Origin: an uncultured Candidatus Melainabacteria bacterium
Lineage (GTDB): Bacteria; Cyanobacteriota; Vampirovibrionia; Gastranaerophilales; Gastranaerophilaceae
Assembly: GCA_949741915.1 (NCBI GenBank)
Contig: CATJOM010000048.1
Span: 1-64,000 of the forward strand
Reading direction: 5' to 3'
Length of the DNA stretch: 64,000 bases
How positions within the stretch are numbered: position 1 is the stretch's first letter; the number at the start of each line of letters is the position of its first letter. Of the stretch, positions 4,652-44,900 are shown piece by piece. The notes under the pieces are model-generated. The model was not told the DNA's origin. It was given only the letters and a program-made list of their open reading frames with translations, and did not search any database. A program made the position numbers and the translations under genes.

Positions 4652-5208
4652 TCCTTGCCTCCAGGAATTTCACCATGCCCAAAAAATTTTTTGTATAAAA
4701 TTCCTAAAATTGCAGATAAAATAATAGAGATTGACGGAGAAACTCCAAAAACTGACAATATCAGAATCCCTAAAAATATTAAAAATGTAAATCTATCTAC
4801 AATGCTATTTTTCCAAACCTCCTTAACAGTCAAAAGCAAAAGAATTATTATTGCAACATTAACACCCCAAAAAATATCATTCACTATAATATTTTTCGCA
4901 AGTTTCATCAGTATTGATGCAAGAAAAATTATCGCTAAAAACGGCGGCAAAATAAGTCCAAAAAAAGCAGCGAGAGCGCCTGTTTTCCCCCTTAATTTAT
5001 ATCCTACAAAAAGAGTTGTATTTACTGCAATGATACCTGGAACACACTGGCCAAGAGCATAATAGTTAACAATATCTTCTTCATTTACCCAATTATTTTT
5101 TTCAATTAATTCACTCCTTAGCAACGGCACAATAACATACCCTCCACCCAAAAGCAGACAGCCAATTTTAAGGAATGATAAAAACATTTTTAAAAGAGAA
5201 GGTTTCAT
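4648..5208 (-). CDS. Chromate-transporter-type (CHR) half subunit, first of pair
   Basis: A 186-residue membrane protein, paralogous to the next gene. It shows FLKIGCLLLGGGYVIVPLL at the N-terminus and YYALGQCVPGIIAVN in place of the partner's SSITPGPVGLN loop, then several hydrophobic helices. It carries the CHR domain only once. It is translationally coupled to the second half. I see no good Shine-Dalgarno in front of its ATG and no metal regulator nearby, so a role in chromate resistance is not supported by context; a general anion exporter is equally possible. Confidence 0.85.
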   Translation of the reverse strand: MKPSLLKMFLSFLKIGCLLLGGGYVIVPLLRSELIEKNNWVNEEDIVNYYALGQCVPGIIAVNTTLFVGYKLRGKTGALAAFFGLILPPFLAIIFLASILMKLAKNIIVNDIFWGVNVAIIILLLLTVKEVWKNSIVDRFTFLIFLGILILSVFGVSPSISIILSAILGILYKKFFGHGEIPGGKE

Positions 5209-5337
5209 AAAAGATATTTTACATTAAAAATTTAGTAATTATATTCAATTTTACATAAATATCGTCGCAGACCGTTTAAATAATACGGCGATATTCATAC
5301 AAAAGGAAAAATAATTAAACCATGTTAAAATTTTAGT

Positions 5338-7323
5338 ATGATAGAAAAGAAGTTTAAAATTGAATCTGAACATACACCACAAGGCGATCAGCCAAAAGCT
5401 ATAGATGCCCTTGTCAAAGGCATTCAAGATGGAATGCCAACCCAAACTTTGCTTGGTGTAACAGGTTCAGGTAAAACTTTTACGATTGCAAACGTAATAG
5501 AAAAAGTGCAAAAGCCAACACTTATAATTGCGCACAATAAAACTCTTGCAGCACAGCTTTACAATGAATTCAGAGAACTTTTTCCAAATAATGCGGTTGA
5601 GTATTTTATAAGCTACTATGATTATTACCAGCCAGAAGCATATATTCCAAGAACAGATACATATATTGAAAAAACAGCCTCAATCAATGACGAGATTGAC
5701 CGTTTGCGCCACAATACAACAAGAAGCTTGTATGAAAGAAAAGATGTGATTGTTGTAGCATCTGTAAGCTGCATATACGGCTTAGGACTTCCTGAAAATT
5801 ATTTTAAGGGTGCAATAAATTTATCAGTCGGCGAAGAAATAGACAGACAGGCACTTTTGGAACATCTTGTTCTTGTAAGATATGAAAGAAACGATGTCGA
5901 ACTAAAACGTGCAACATTTAGGGCCAGGGGCGACATTGTTGAAATCATGCCAAGCTATGAAAAAATTATTACAAGGATTTATTTTTTTGGTGATGAAATT
6001 GAAAAAATTTCAAGAATCGACCCTGTAACAGGCGAAATTCTTGAAAACGTACCTGAAACTGTTATATATCCTGCTGTACATTACCTGGCAGATGATGAAG
6101 ATATAGATGGCACAATAACAGAAATCCGTCGTGAACTTAAGGCGCGTTTGAATGAATTATACGCAGAAAATAAGCTTGTAGAGGCGCAAAGGCTTGAACA
6201 GCGCGTGAATTATGACATTGAAATGATAAAAGAAATGGGCTATTGCTCAGGTATTGAAAATTATTCAAGAATTTTTGAAAAAAGATTGCCAGGAACACCA
6301 CCTGCAACACTTTTAGACTATTTTCAGAATGATTTTCTTGTTGTTGTGGATGAATCCCACGTTACTTTGCCTCAGTTAAGGGGTATGTATTTTGGCGACA
6401 AAGCAAGGAAAGAAACCCTTGTAGAGTATGGTTTCAGGCTGCCTTGTGCTAAAGATAACAGGCCTTTAACATTTGATGAATTTTGGAATAAAATCGGCCA
6501 AAAAGTCTTTATTTCAGCTACTCCGGCTGAATTTGAGAAGCAGGAATCAGCCCAAATCGTAGAGCAAATCATCCGCCCAACAGGGCTTCTTGATCCTGAA
6601 ATTGATGTAAGGCCAACCGAGGGACAGGTTAGTGACCTTATTAAGGAAATAAATACAACCGCAGAAAAGAAAGAGCGCATTTTAATCACCACCTTAACCA
6701 AAAAAATGGCCGAAGAGCTAACTGAATATTTGACACAAAAAGGTATAAGGGTAAGATACCTGCATAGCGAGGTGCAATCCTTAGAAAGGGTTGAAATCTT
6801 AAGGGATTTAAGGCTTGGAGAGTTTGATGTTTTAATCGGCGTAAACCTTTTAAGAGAAGGGCTTGATATACCAGAAGTATCGCTTGTTGCCATAATGGAT
6901 GCCGACAAGGAAGGTTTTTTAAGATGCGAAACCTCTTTAATTCAGACAATCGGCCGCTCTGCAAGGAATTCATCCGGCAGGGTTATTATGTATGCCGATA
7001 AAATAACCGATTCAATGAAGGTGGCGATTGAAGAAACTAAAAGGCGCCGCAAACTACAGATGGTATTTAATAAGGAACATAATATCACCCCTAAAACCAT
7101 TAAAAAATCTATTGAAAATAACCTCTTATCTCTTGTTCAAAGCTATAGAAGCATTGAAGATATTGTGGCAGAAGAGATGTGCGAAATGAACATTGAAAAG
7201 AAAGATTTACCAAAACTTTTAAACCAGCTTGAAAAAGATATGCACAAAGCTGCTAAAATTCTTGACTTTGAGCGGGCAGCAGAACTCAGAGACCAGATTA
7301 AGAAATTAAGAGAGATGGTGTAA
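5338..7323 (+). CDS. uvrB: Excinuclease ABC subunit B
   Basis: A 661-residue DNA-damage-recognition helicase of nucleotide excision repair, loaded by UvrA and partnering UvrC. Walker A GVTGSGKT lies near residue 40, the beta-hairpin [10 protein letters not shown] near 92-101, the DESH Walker B near 340, [13 protein letters not shown] and QTIGRSARN near the end of the helicase core, and a C-terminal UVR domain ([16 protein letters not shown]) that contacts UvrC. The length is typical. No Shine-Dalgarno is visible, but TGTTAAAAT lies 6 nt before ATG, the geometry expected of an extended -10 for a leaderless transcript. uvrA and uvrC are not in the window. Confidence 0.97.
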
Positions 7324-40528: not shown

Positions 40529-41788
40529 ATGAGTGTTATTGTTCAAAAATTCGGCGGCACCTCGCTTGCTGATACCGATAAGATTAAAAATGTTGCCCGT
40601 GCAGTTGTCAGAGAAAAAAAACTTGGAAATGATGTTATTGTCGTTGTTTCAGCCATGGGACATACAACCGATAATTTAATTAAGCTTGCCCACCAAATTT
40701 CAGAACACCCGTCAGACAGAGAGATGGATATGCTTATGTCAACAGGGGAACAGGTTTCGATTGCGCTTTTAACAATGGCGATTCAGGAAATGGGCTATAG
40801 TGCCGTTTCTATGACTGGCGCCCAGGTTGGAATTTTAACTGAAGAAACCCATTCAAGGGCGAGAATCGTTGATATCAAGACAGATAAACTTAAAGAACAT
40901 CTTGGCGAAGGCAAAATCATTATAGTTGCCGGTTTTCAAGGCATAACTGCAAAAGGTGAAATCACAACACTTGGAAGAGGCGGCTCCGATACTTCGGCTG
41001 TTGCAATTGCTGCAGCCCTAAAGGTTGACAGGTGCGATATTTATTCAGATGTTGAAGGGATTTATACAACAGACCCCAGAGTTGTTCCAACAGCACAAAA
41101 ACTAAAAGAAATTTCTTATGAAGAAATGCTGGAGCTTGCAAGGGTTGGAGCAAATGTATTGCACCCAAGATCAGTTGAAACTGCTAAGCAATTTTCAGTG
41201 CCTATGAGGCTTAGAAGCTCATTTAAACTTGATGATTTAGGAACATTGATAATAGGAGTTAATGAAATGGAAATTTACAAACCCGTGACAGGTTTAGCCT
41301 GTGATAATTCGCAAGTAAGGGTTGTAATCTGTGATGTACCTGATAAGCCAGGTAATGCAGGAAAATTATTTACACTTCTTGCAAAATATGAGCTTTCTGT
41401 TGATATGATTATCCAGTCTTATGCAAGAAGCCATGACAATACAAACGACATAGCCTTCACAATCAGCAAGGATGATTTAACAAGATTTTGCGGCTTTAAA
41501 GATGAAATCATGAAATTAATGAATCCGAGCAATATTCATATAGATGAAGATATTGCTAAAGTTTCGATAGTAGGGGCAGGTATGATAGACAGGCCTGGTA
41601 TTGCTTCTATGATGTTTGAAACCCTTGCAAGAGAAAATGTTAACATTAAAATGATTGCAACTAGTGAAATCAAGATTAGCTGTCTTGTTGAAAAATTTAA
41701 CGCAAACAAAGCGGTTCAGGCACTTTGCAAAACATTTGAACTTGACGGAGCTGAGGCTGCTATCGTAAAAGGCACCCTGCCAGACTAA
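40529..41788 (+). CDS. lysC: Aspartate kinase
   Basis: A 419-residue aspartokinase, the entry step to lysine, methionine and threonine. KFGGTSLAD at the N-terminus, VVSAMGHTTDNL, the LMSTGEQVSIALL catalytic segment, GFQGIT, TTLGRGGSDTSAVAIAAAL and YTTDPRVVPTAQ are standard. Two C-terminal ACT domains follow (about residues 265-410), as in monofunctional feedback-inhibited enzymes. It completes the route used by asd-dapA-dapB at 8.5-11.3 kb. A terminator-like hairpin follows. Confidence 0.96.
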   Translation: MSVIVQKFGGTSLADTDKIKNVARAVVREKKLGNDVIVVVSAMGHTTDNLIKLAHQISEHPSDREMDMLMSTGEQVSIALLTMAIQEMGYSAVSMTGAQVGILTEETHSRARIVDIKTDKLKEHLGEGKIIIVAGFQGITAKGEITTLGRGGSDTSAVAIAAALKVDRCDIYSDVEGIYTTDPRVVPTAQKLKEISYEEMLELARVGANVLHPRSVETAKQFSVPMRLRSSFKLDDLGTLIIGVNEMEIYKPVTGLACDNSQVRVVICDVPDKPGNAGKLFTLLAKYELSVDMIIQSYARSHDNTNDIAFTISKDDLTRFCGFKDEIMKLMNPSNIHIDEDIAKVSIVGAGMIDRPGIASMMFETLARENVNIKMIATSEIKISCLVEKFNANKAVQALCKTFELDGAEAAIVKGTLPD

Positions 41789-41833
41789 ATTTTCACACTC
41801 ATTTATGTGTGCTTTGAATTTTAAATAAATTTT

Positions 41834-41871
41834 ATCAGGATGTATAAAAATTTCCATTTGTACATCCTGAT
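41834..41871 (+). terminator. Hairpin after lysC
   Basis: ATCAGGATGTA (41834-41844) / TACATCCTGAT (41861-41871), an 11-bp perfect stem, 46 bp after the lysC stop. No strong T-run follows. Confidence 0.6.
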
Positions 41872-41958
41872 ACTATTAAAACATTCTTTAAAAACTTTAT
41901 ACAGAACCCAACCAAAAAGAATGTTAGAATATAAAAAGAATTAATATCGGATAAAAAA

Positions 41959-42960
41959 ATGCCATTAAACAATAAAACTAAGTTTAAGCTAATACTGGGG
42001 CTTGGCAATAAAGATATAAAAAGCGCTCTTGAGGTTGCACTTTTGTATGCAAAAGCAGGTGTGAGATTTTTTGATGCTTCCCCGGAAATATTACCAGAGC
42101 TGAGTAAAGGGCTGATTAAATTAGGTTTTAACAGGGATGACTTTACGCTTTGCGCCTCAGCACCTATACTTGGAGACATTCATGGCAGAAAAGCCTTTAT
42201 AAGCGAAAGCATTTGTTCTGGATGTTCTTTATGTATGAAAAACTGCCCAGAGGATGCTGTTTATAAAAATAAAAAATCCGGCAAATATGAAATAGATTCT
42301 AAAAAATGCATCGGCTGTTCTGCCTGCAAAAAGATAACAAATTGTTATGCAATATCTTTTGAATACAGCAATGGTGAGATAAATAGTCTAAAAAAGCTTA
42401 TTGATGAAGGTTTTAAAATTGATATGGCAGAGCTTCATGCCTCGATATCAGACAAAAAACAAATAATAAAGGATTTTAAAGATATCTTAACATTTTTCAG
42501 AGGCGATATAAGTGTTTGTATCAACAGAAGACAATTTCCGTTGGATGACACTGTAAAATTATTAAAGGAACTAAAAAGACTGCATTCTGTTTCAAATACA
42601 CAAAATTCCGATAATAGTTCTGAATTTTATGTACAGGCAGATGGCGCCTCTATGAATGGCGGAGACTCTTCTGACGATTCAACACTTGAATGCGTTTTAT
42701 TTGCAAAAGAGCTTGCACCATACGGCTTTAACCTTATAGTTTCAGGCGGCACCAATAATAATACTCCAAAGATTTTAAATGATATAATGTCTGAGGATGA
42801 TGAGTACAATATGCCTGTGATAGCATATGGCACATATGCAAGAAAGCTTATATCTGGCCTGCCGCCCAAAGAAGCTCTTATTAAAGCAAAGGTTCTATTT
42901 GAAGAAACAGAAAATTATGACAGATATGATAGAAGAGACTCAACGGTTTCTATCGGATAA
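41959..42960 (+). CDS. LdpA-like 4Fe-4S protein
   Basis: 333 residues. After an N-terminal segment (FKLILGLGNKDIKSALEVA, then AGVRFFDASPE) come two ferredoxin-type Cys clusters: C86-x2-C89-x2-C92-x3-C96, and C117-x2-C120-x2-C123-x5-C129, the second unusually spaced. The C-terminal half has YVQADGASMNGGD, LIVSGGTNNNT and IAYGTYARKLISGL. These match the order I know from cyanobacterial LdpA (DGRPMSGDIG, AGGTN, AYGSYARK), a redox-sensing protein that tunes the circadian clock with light. In a non-photosynthetic lineage the role must differ. GGAT lies before ATG. Its end overlaps tilS by 44 bp. Confidence 0.75.
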   Translation: MPLNNKTKFKLILGLGNKDIKSALEVALLYAKAGVRFFDASPEILPELSKGLIKLGFNRDDFTLCASAPILGDIHGRKAFISESICSGCSLCMKNCPEDAVYKNKKSGKYEIDSKKCIGCSACKKITNCYAISFEYSNGEINSLKKLIDEGFKIDMAELHASISDKKQIIKDFKDILTFFRGDISVCINRRQFPLDDTVKLLKELKRLHSVSNTQNSDNSSEFYVQADGASMNGGDSSDDSTLECVLFAKELAPYGFNLIVSGGTNNNTPKILNDIMSEDDEYNMPVIAYGTYARKLISGLPPKEALIKAKVLFEETENYDRYDRRDSTVSIG

Positions 42961-44368
42961 TAATATAAAAAATAAATGCGTTTTAATGGCGCTCTCTGGC
43001 GGCGTTGACAGCTCTGTTTTGTTTTTTATATTAAATAAATTGAAATCCGAATTTAATCTCAACTTAAAGGCAATTCACCTTAACCATAATTGGCGTGGTA
43101 AAGAATCCATTGAAGATTTGAGATTTTGTGAGACCATTGCAAAAAAAAATGAATGCGAATTCTTTTCAAAGACCCTTGATGATTCTATAAAAAAAACCGA
43201 AGTATCAGCAAGAGAGGCAAGGTACGCATTTTTTGAAGAAGCTCTTATAAGATTTAATTCTGATATCTGTTTTTTAGCACACAATAAAAATGATAATGTC
43301 GAAACACTTTTGTATAGAATAGCAAAAGGTACGGGCCCAAGCGGACTATCATCCATACCAAAAATCAGAAAACCATATTATAGGCCCATACTGGATGTTT
43401 CACGGACCGAAATAGAAAACTTTGCAAGCCTTCACAGGATAAAATTTTGCACAGATAAATCAAACAATGACACAAAATACAAAAGAAATTTTATTAGAAA
43501 AAATATTATTCCAAATTTTGAAACCATAAATAATAATGCAGTTAATGCCATTAATTCCTTGATAAAACTTTCATCCGAGCAGAACGAGCTTGTGAATGAT
43601 TATATTCTGGACATTGAAAAAGAAATCTTTGATAATACAGAACTATGCTCAGCTGGGCTCTTTGATGCATCGCTCAAACCATTAAAAGAAAAAAAACCAA
43701 TAAAAAGAAAAGATTTTCTCTTCCTTAAAGATTCCATACAAAGAGAAATTTTATCAAGATATTTTAAGGGAATTTTAAAAAACAGAGATTATAAGACAAT
43801 ACTCAAAATTCAAAATTTTATCAAAGAAAATGAAAATTCGCTTCTGTCCTTAAATTCAGATTCTTTTTTAAAGATTCAGAATGACAAAGTATATATACAT
43901 AAACCATCCAAAAATAAGGCTTCCGATATTGAGATACCCATTTTATCTCCAGGTGAATATAAAATTTTAGATTATATAATTTCAATTAAAAAAGTCTCAT
44001 TTACAAAAGCGCCATTAAAAAGGCACAAAAAAAATGGAGAAGAGTATGTAAATCTTAATGAGCCATTGGATTATGTTCTAAGATTTAGAAAAGACGGTGA
44101 TATTTTTTCACCACTTGGCACGGTTCAAAACAGCCTGGATGATAAACAAAAAAAACAGCCAAAGCTTAAGGATTATTTTATAAACAAAAAAATTCCCCAA
44201 AATTTACGCTCTAAAATTCCACTTCTTTGTCATAAAAATGAAGTATTTTGGGTTACAGGTGTTCAAATTTCTGATAAGATAAAACTGGATTTTCAAAATA
44301 AAACCCAAGATAAAACAAAAAACACATATAAACTTTCAATAACTAGAAAGGACAAAGAAGATGGATAA
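42917..44368 (+). CDS. tilS: tRNA(Ile)-lysidine synthase
   Basis: About 483 residues from ATG 42917 (MTDMIEETQRFL). The frame is open 90 bp further up, but that would overlap the LdpA-like gene by 134 bp. The PP-loop is ALSGGVDSSVLFF near residues 24-36, followed by HLNHNWRGKESIED, LAHNKNDNVETLLYRI and GTGPSGLSSIP. The C-terminal substrate-binding domains end with DYFINKKIPQNLRSKIPLL and VFWVTGVQISDKIK. The enzyme converts C34 of the CAU isoleucine tRNA to lysidine, and is essential. It is coupled to hpt. Confidence 0.93.
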   Translation: MTDMIEETQRFLSDNNIKNKCVLMALSGGVDSSVLFFILNKLKSEFNLNLKAIHLNHNWRGKESIEDLRFCETIAKKNECEFFSKTLDDSIKKTEVSAREARYAFFEEALIRFNSDICFLAHNKNDNVETLLYRIAKGTGPSGLSSIPKIRKPYYRPILDVSRTEIENFASLHRIKFCTDKSNNDTKYKRNFIRKNIIPNFETINNNAVNAINSLIKLSSEQNELVNDYILDIEKEIFDNTELCSAGLFDASLKPLKEKKPIKRKDFLFLKDSIQREILSRYFKGILKNRDYKTILKIQNFIKENENSLLSLNSDSFLKIQNDKVYIHKPSKNKASDIEIPILSPGEYKILDYIISIKKVSFTKAPLKRHKKNGEEYVNLNEPLDYVLRFRKDGDIFSPLGTVQNSLDDKQKKQPKLKDYFINKKIPQNLRSKIPLLCHKNEVFWVTGVQISDKIKLDFQNKTQDKTKNTYKLSITRKDKEDG

Positions 44369-44900
44369 ATCTCAATTAAAAACCCTTGTGAACAATGAAG
44401 ACTTGCAAAACAGAATCAAAGAGTTAGCAGAAGAAATAAATAATTATTATGAAAGAAAATACAGCCTAAATGAAGAATTAACAATTGTTTGCGTCCTAAA
44501 GGGTGCTGTTATGTTTTTTACTGAATTGTCAAAATATTTGAAGATGCCCGTAAGAATGGAATTTGTTAGCCTTTCAAGCTATGGCTGCAGCGAAAAATCT
44601 TCTGGCAAAGTTTCAGCCTTAAATTTATCCTTGCCGCCACTAGAGAACAAAAATGTTCTTGTGGTTGAAGATATTATGGATACTGGGCTTACACTAAAAT
44701 TTTTGCTTGATTTTTTAAACACAAAATGCAAGGCAAAGGATGTAAAACTTGCCGTAATGTGTGATAAAAAATGTGCCAGAAAATACGATATTTCGCCAGA
44801 TTTTTATGCATTTGATGTGGACGATAAGTTTATTGTAGGTTTTGGCCTTGATTATAATGAAATTTACCGAAATATTCCCTATATCGGATATTTTGAATAA
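44361..44900 (+). CDS. hpt: Hypoxanthine phosphoribosyltransferase
   Basis: 179 residues. The purine salvage enzyme makes IMP/GMP from hypoxanthine/guanine and PRPP. Visible: VCVLKGAVMFFTELSKYL, the flexible-loop segment VSLSSYG, the PRPP motif VVEDIMDTGLTLKFLL, and a C-terminal FIVGFGLDYNEIYRNIPYIG. AAAGGA lies before ATG, and the start overlaps tilS by 8 bp. The tilS-hpt order is common in bacteria. The downstream 188 bp to the convergent gene hold a weak GTGCAA/TTGCAC hairpin (44962-44985). Confidence 0.95.
   Translation: MDKSQLKTLVNNEDLQNRIKELAEEINNYYERKYSLNEELTIVCVLKGAVMFFTELSKYLKMPVRMEFVSLSSYGCSEKSSGKVSALNLSLPPLENKNVLVVEDIMDTGLTLKFLLDFLNTKCKAKDVKLAVMCDKKCARKYDISPDFYAFDVDDKFIVGFGLDYNEIYRNIPYIGYFE

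Follow-up and report, generated by a model that had tools for sequence, protein, structure and literature searches.

A divergent LdpA-family protein with two ferredoxin-type cysteine motifs in an apparently non-photosynthetic, Kai-less member of the Cyanobacteriota

Introduction

LdpA of Synechococcus elongatus is reported to copurify with CikA and KaiA and to affect the level and stability of CikA (PMC6378743, PMC13421787); PMC13421787 gives the mechanism of this control over CikA as unknown. In the literature, LdpA is treated as feeding redox information into the Kai clock. The protein has been reported to be exclusive to cyanobacteria (PMC5520375). Homologues of RpaA, RpaB, and NblS have been reported in Melainabacteria (PMC3787301), with rpaA and rpaB also appearing in PMC5877343, and the literature searched contained no paper reporting LdpA in Melainabacteria, Gastranaerophilales, or Vampirovibrio, or LdpA together with R3H.

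Here we describe an ldpA-like gene in a window of 64,000 nucleotides, the whole stretch of DNA that was analyzed. The window belongs to a contig of 251 kb; the host genome, of the Gastranaerophilales (Vampirovibrionia/Melainabacteria), measures 2.45 Mb and is 98% complete. A sequence-only reading of the window had proposed an LdpA-like iron-sulfur protein in an apparently non-photosynthetic host, with an ancestral redox-sensing role independent of photosynthesis and possibly of the Kai clock.

Results

The window protein is a divergent member of the LdpA family

The open reading frame that had been read as LdpA-like from its letters was confirmed as such. The gene and its parts are as follows.

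41959 to 42960, + strand: ldpA-family gene of the GLGN lineage (see below), 333 amino acids, ATG to TAA
41983 to 42165, + strand: predicted barrel strands beta1 FKLILG (K10), beta2 FFDAS (D39), and beta3 LCAS (S67), all three residues invariant (model, alignment)
42193 to 42366, + strand: putative two-cluster [4Fe-4S] ferredoxin module between beta3 and beta4, residues 79 to 136 (Pfam Fer4 and Fer4_10, cysteine spacing, model)
42415 to 42861, + strand: LdpA_C match, rest of the barrel, beta4 to beta8 (Pfam)
42424 to 42441, + strand: beta4 AELH, with invariant E158 and H160 (alignment, model)
42634 to 42666, + strand: QADGASMNGGD at the end of beta6, with invariant Q226, D228, and G229 (alignment, model)
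42742 to 42765, + strand: SGGTNNNT at the end of beta7, phosphate-loop-like, with invariant G263 and G264 (alignment, model)
42823 to 42846, + strand: AYGTYARK at the end of beta8, with invariant G291 and R295 (alignment, model)

The protein matched the Pfam LdpA_C model (PF12617) over residues 153 to 301 with 37.3 bits (E = 2.7e-9), the curated cut-off being 22.2 bits, and its C-terminal half can thus be aligned to LdpA. Fer4 and Fer4_10 also scored above their cut-offs, giving two Fer4 motifs, and the two cysteine motifs lie N-terminal to LdpA_C. The barrel residues follow the LdpA order, including the three motifs picked out in the sequence-only reading, QADGASMNGGD, SGGTNNNT, and AYGTYARK (residues 226 to 236, 262 to 269, and 289 to 296). 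The NCBI LdpA equivalog NF045992 aligned to residues 5 to 301 (E = 1.1e-15) with 57.6 bits, compared to 632.9 bits for a cyanobacterial LdpA and 154.7 bits for a canonical Gastranaerophilales LdpA. Since the cut-off of this equivalog is 450 bits, the window protein is a divergent family member and not "the clock protein". Judged from these profile comparisons, it is a genuine LdpA-family member, and it is the sole LdpA of the 98%-complete host genome.

Cyanobacterial LdpA (NF045992, PF12617, PF25160) and the window protein share their domain order, an LdpA_C match over the cut-off, the invariant barrel residues, and two four-cysteine motifs. However, they are only about 24 to 26% identical, the window protein scores far under the equivalog cut-off, and the two differ in cysteine spacing: the first motif of the window protein (C86-x2-C89-x2-C92-x3-C96) has a short CxxC spacing, and the second (C117-x2-C120-x2-C123-x5-C129, that is, CxxCxxCx5C) ends with x5 instead of x3. 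The two clusters, and the unusual x5, had been pointed out from the sequence, and the comparison bore this out, as x3 is the rule in other LdpA proteins (75/75 readable loci of a wider scan) and x5 was seen in the window protein alone among the LdpA sequences read. The x5 spacing could change one of the clusters; none of the eight cysteines is missing.

Structure prediction yields a barrel with an inserted ferredoxin

AlphaFold2 predicted eight alternating strand-helix units, a (beta/alpha)8 barrel, both for the window protein (pLDDT 80.8, pTM 0.78) and for a canonical relative (pLDDT 92.4, pTM 0.91). In either model the two-cluster ferredoxin module forms an insertion that follows beta3 and precedes beta4. 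Foldseek matched the models to TIM, DERA, TrpA, ThiE, aldolases, and RPE, which are phosphate-binding barrels, in keeping with membership of the TIM barrel fold. TM-scores to solved barrels were modest (0.4 to 0.6) and hence indicate no specific enzyme. What LdpA has in common with the phosphate-binding barrels TrpA, TIM, DERA, ThiE, and RPE is the predicted fold and the glycine-rich beta7 and beta8 loops, whereas no specific sequence relationship to them was found. A sequence search for an LdpA of known structure matched only the ferredoxin region. To our knowledge, no phosphate-binding TIM barrel with a two-cluster ferredoxin after beta3 has been described.

The active sites of TIM barrels lie at the carboxy ends of the strands. 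In an alignment of 49 diverse sequences from photosynthetic and non-photosynthetic lineages, the invariant columns, among them D73 and H75, sit at or just past these ends, suggesting that in the predicted fold they are placed like an active site. The window protein retains every invariant column of this alignment, plus all eight cysteines.

The barrel is related to Ycf23/DUF561

Beyond LdpA and iron-sulfur families, the main Pfam family reached by LdpA members was DUF561 (19/32, best E = 3.7e-7). Profile-profile alignment of LdpA with Ycf23 by hhalign gave 98.4% (E = 8e-15) over the barrel, and 96.7% with a narrower alignment. On these profile comparisons the LdpA barrel is homologous to Ycf23/DUF561 (PF04481), the beta1-to-beta3 region included. 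The likeness extends over the whole length of the barrel and can be followed in paired LdpA/Ycf23 motifs: KLICG/KVISG, DxxA, CVS, IELH/IEIG, QADG/QTEG, SGG/ASG, and GSYAR/GSA. By contrast, Ycf23 has no ferredoxin insert, and its annotation says no more than unknown function. For the window protein, no Pfam match to DUF561 was obtained at E 0.1, and the canonical Gastranaerophilales LdpA L057 reached 20.7 bits against a cut-off of 21.6; LdpA is thus a relative of Ycf23/DUF561, not a member. Like LdpA, Ycf23 is phylum-wide: a Ycf23/DUF561 gene was found in 19/20 genomes tested across the phylum, non-photosynthetic ones included. That of the host lies on the same contig, outside the window (G000:C48:183392-184105).

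LdpA occurs independently of photosystem I and the Kai clock

The sequence-only reading had called the host apparently non-photosynthetic and had seen no kai gene in the window. Both statements remain true when the entire genome, 98% complete, is considered: neither PsaA/PsaB nor KaiA or KaiB was found in it, and the only match to KaiC was partial and RadA-like (34 bits, cut-off 546) and was rejected. The host therefore has no Kai clock for LdpA to serve, and in this it differs, as in its lack of photosystem I, from the cyanobacteria in which LdpA was described.

Across the phylum Cyanobacteriota, LdpA_C was present in 377 of the 386 genomes drawn and in 140/142 genera. Some misses reflect insensitivity of the model, because one genome that it missed (G160) has a full-length relative of the window protein, 44% identical. 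Most of 60 family genomes have such full-length relatives; a few matches, e.g., in G396, cover the ferredoxin region only. All 30 non-Cyanobacteriia genomes tested were without PsaA/B, and 29 of them have LdpA. KaiB over the cut-off was absent from 28/30 (exceptions, G096 and G013), and among 24 genomes tested KaiC over the cut-off was confined to three cyanobacteria, with 0/21 in the others. LdpA is thus found whether or not photosystem I and the Kai clock are there, and to this extent the independence proposed from the sequence stands. One of the two exceptions, a PsaA-less genome of family f13, carries adjacent KaiB- and KaiC-like genes (G013:C17:3357-5191), the KaiC-like protein scoring 174 bits, under the clock cut-off.

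The test for occurrence outside the phylum covered 14 control genomes searched with LdpA_C, of which Synechococcus elongatus alone was above the cut-off. Within the scope of these control genomes, the reported exclusivity to cyanobacteria holds only for the phylum in the wide sense. The 80 best loci of a locus search with a narrower alignment were essentially all from the gut order, which makes that search uninformative on occurrence outside the phylum. One of the Gastranaerophilales ldpA loci (L159, JAMPCZ010000075.1) sits in a metagenome-assembled genome labeled Muribaculaceae, a mislabeled or contaminated bin.

Two LdpA lineages in the order of the window

In a maximum-likelihood tree computed from 79 LdpA proteins, the branching broadly matched the organism groups: the Cyanobacteriia, the window's order, and the remaining non-photosynthetic lineages fell into separate, well-supported clades. 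Because the tree broadly follows the organisms, LdpA appears to be an ancient gene and not a relic or a recent import; the sequence data favor mainly vertical inheritance, broadly, throughout the Cyanobacteriota. The Cyanobacteriia clade sits on a long stem (support, 100/100). The drawing is midpoint rooted, and any direction of change is inferred from that rooting.

The window's order holds two LdpA lineages, a common one with the motif FKL(V/I)CGAGN (GAGN) and one whose members mostly start with FKL(V/I)LGLGN (GLGN). The latter includes the window protein, is supported as a clade (98/85), and has a long branch (1.49). Canonical GAGN proteins of the Gastranaerophilales, such as L092 (CALUPW010000001.1) and L057 (genome G055), which encode the same LdpA, share with the window protein the fold, all invariant residues, and usually a single copy per genome, but they are only 29 to 38% identical to it and keep the x3 spacing. 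The last spacing is x1, x2, or x5 in six of nine GLGN members, against x3 in 69/69 other sequences with a readable motif. Genome G152 has both lineages; in almost all of the other genomes surveyed a single one is seen. We read this pattern as an old duplication or replacement, and the two types would be exchangeable in function.

A separate discordance was noted for L085 (G223:C1:1173123-1173629), from a small-genome cyanobacterium bearing PsaA and KaiB (family f32, genus g106), whose LdpA groups with the non-photosynthetic family f20 (100/99). Its sister species, G165, has no LdpA_C match. Replacement of this LdpA by transfer is possible.

Gene neighborhood

The genes and hairpin around ldpA are as follows.

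40529 to 41788, + strand: lysC, aspartokinase, upstream of ldpA
41833 to 41872, + strand: single-copy 16-bp hairpin between lysC and ldpA
42917 to 44368, + strand: tilS, tRNA-Ile lysidine synthetase, its start overlapping the end of ldpA
44361 to 44900, + strand: phosphoribosyltransferase (hpt-like), downstream of tilS

The upstream lysC is shared with the two nearest relatives (L033, L036). The lysC-ldpA intergenic region folds better than 200/200 shuffles (z = -5.4) and contains a second hairpin (41874-41931); the first had no Rfam match and is not a repeat, occurring once in the genome. This region is probably a lysC terminator or an ldpA leader.

Downstream, ldpA precedes and adjoins tilS in 8/9 loci of the GLGN lineage, whereas the canonical gene lies directly behind a gene for a Beta-lactamase2-type serine hydrolase in 79/80 Gastranaerophilales loci (L092-L171, about 4780-6000). 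Elsewhere in the phylum the gene downstream of ldpA usually encodes a SpoIIIAA-like AAA ATPase (PF19568, PF25516), designated Spore_III_AA-like in our analysis and which we take to be of the Ycf45 family. This was the case in 30/30 cyanobacterial loci and in 18 of the 24 non-photosynthetic loci outside the window's family (L062-L086 minus the cyanobacterial L085). All checked pairs (43/43) are on the same strand, and in G341 the two genes are 1.3 kb apart. Being common to photosynthetic and non-photosynthetic classes, the pair probably predates their split, as far as gene order can tell. The host retains the ATPase gene unlinked to ldpA (G000:C27:1648-3138), and ldpA has moved next to tilS in the window's subclade.

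Discussion

Taken together, we consider it probable that the window encodes a divergent LdpA, that ldpA is an ancient gene of the phylum, that its product is a barrel of the phosphate-binding kind with an inserted ferredoxin, and that the circadian-period effect is secondary. The best reading makes LdpA a redox-coupled barrel protein, either an enzyme or a ligand sensor, that predates both the clock and photosynthesis. In such a protein, a two-cluster bacterial-type ferredoxin would be inserted after beta3 of the barrel, whose mouth would be lined by the invariant Lys10, Asp39, Ser67, Glu158, His160, Gln226, and Asp228. The beta7 SGGTN and beta8 G(S/T)YAR loops would hold a phosphorylated small molecule, and the conserved polar residues would either do chemistry or sense binding. 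The two clusters beside beta3 might then pass electrons to the barrel site or report the cellular redox state, and the period effect seen in Synechococcus elongatus would reflect a secondary use to which an older module was put. The analysis shows the family membership, the distribution, the lack of photosystem I and Kai proteins, the predicted fold, the Ycf23 homology, and the conserved gene pair; the phosphate ligand, the electron transfer to the barrel, and the chemistry are inferred.

The main alternative is a pure redox sensor, in which the barrel is a scaffold or protein-binding surface and LdpA has another partner in the gut bacterium. The association of S. elongatus LdpA with CikA and KaiA (PMC6378743, PMC13421787) speaks for it, and so do the RpaA, RpaB, and NblS homologues of Melainabacteria (PMC3787301), through which other pieces of the regulatory network are present; the S. 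elongatus period phenotype itself is equally compatible with a sensor and with an enzyme. However, the Kai proteins are absent, and photosynthetic and non-photosynthetic lineages alike keep at least eight barrel-mouth positions, polar or glycine, unchanged, which exceeds what a scaffold would require, so that we regard this alternative as unlikely. The independence from photosynthesis and Kai was upheld. As for the sensing role, the predicted fold, the Ycf23 homology, and the polar pattern at the barrel mouth point to a redox enzyme or ligand-binding barrel at least as much as to a pure sensor.

Somewhat less likely still is that the window copy is a decaying or neofunctionalized paralogue from a fast lineage, with a second cluster that may no longer be normal. 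The long branch of the well-supported GLGN clade, its irregular last cysteine spacing, the co-occurrence of both lineages in G152, and the different neighbor, tilS, would fit such a copy, but it is the only LdpA in the genome and keeps eight cysteines and every invariant barrel residue, and nearly all surveyed genomes carry one of the two types, which is what a shared job would predict. As the family takes its name from cyanobacteria and has been reported from their phylum alone (PMC5520375), a photosynthetic cyanobacterium might be suspected as the source, through recent transfer or contamination. We rejected this origin as highly improbable on tree and synteny, as ldpA is embedded in the 251-kb contig between lysC and tilS and its nearest relatives are Gastranaerophilales, the Cyanobacteriia forming a separate clade on a long, fully supported stem. 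Finally, an unrelated ferredoxin carrying the motifs by chance would account for the many Fer4 families that match the ferredoxin region, but it has a negligible probability, given the LdpA_C match over the cut-off beyond that region and the full-length alignment with 22 invariant columns.

For LdpA as a redox-coupled barrel enzyme or ligand sensor, near-universal presence of the gene and an enzyme-like barrel with an iron-sulfur module imply that the original job probably predates photosynthesis and the clock. Clock input cannot be the role of LdpA in this host, and it is unlikely to have been the original one. A more specific proposal, which we put forward tentatively and hold to be rather less than evenly likely, is that LdpA is a phylum-wide, pre-photosynthetic housekeeping redox enzyme working with the SpoIIIAA-like ATPase, that circadian input arose late as a by-product, and that the gut lineage has kept the first function and started to rebuild one cluster site. 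The pairing with the ATPase gene offers a lead to the ancestral function. LdpA is carried by almost all members of the phylum that lack photosynthesis and Kai, which reverses the question usually put to this protein: what was its original reaction or ligand, of which the period phenotype may be a side effect?
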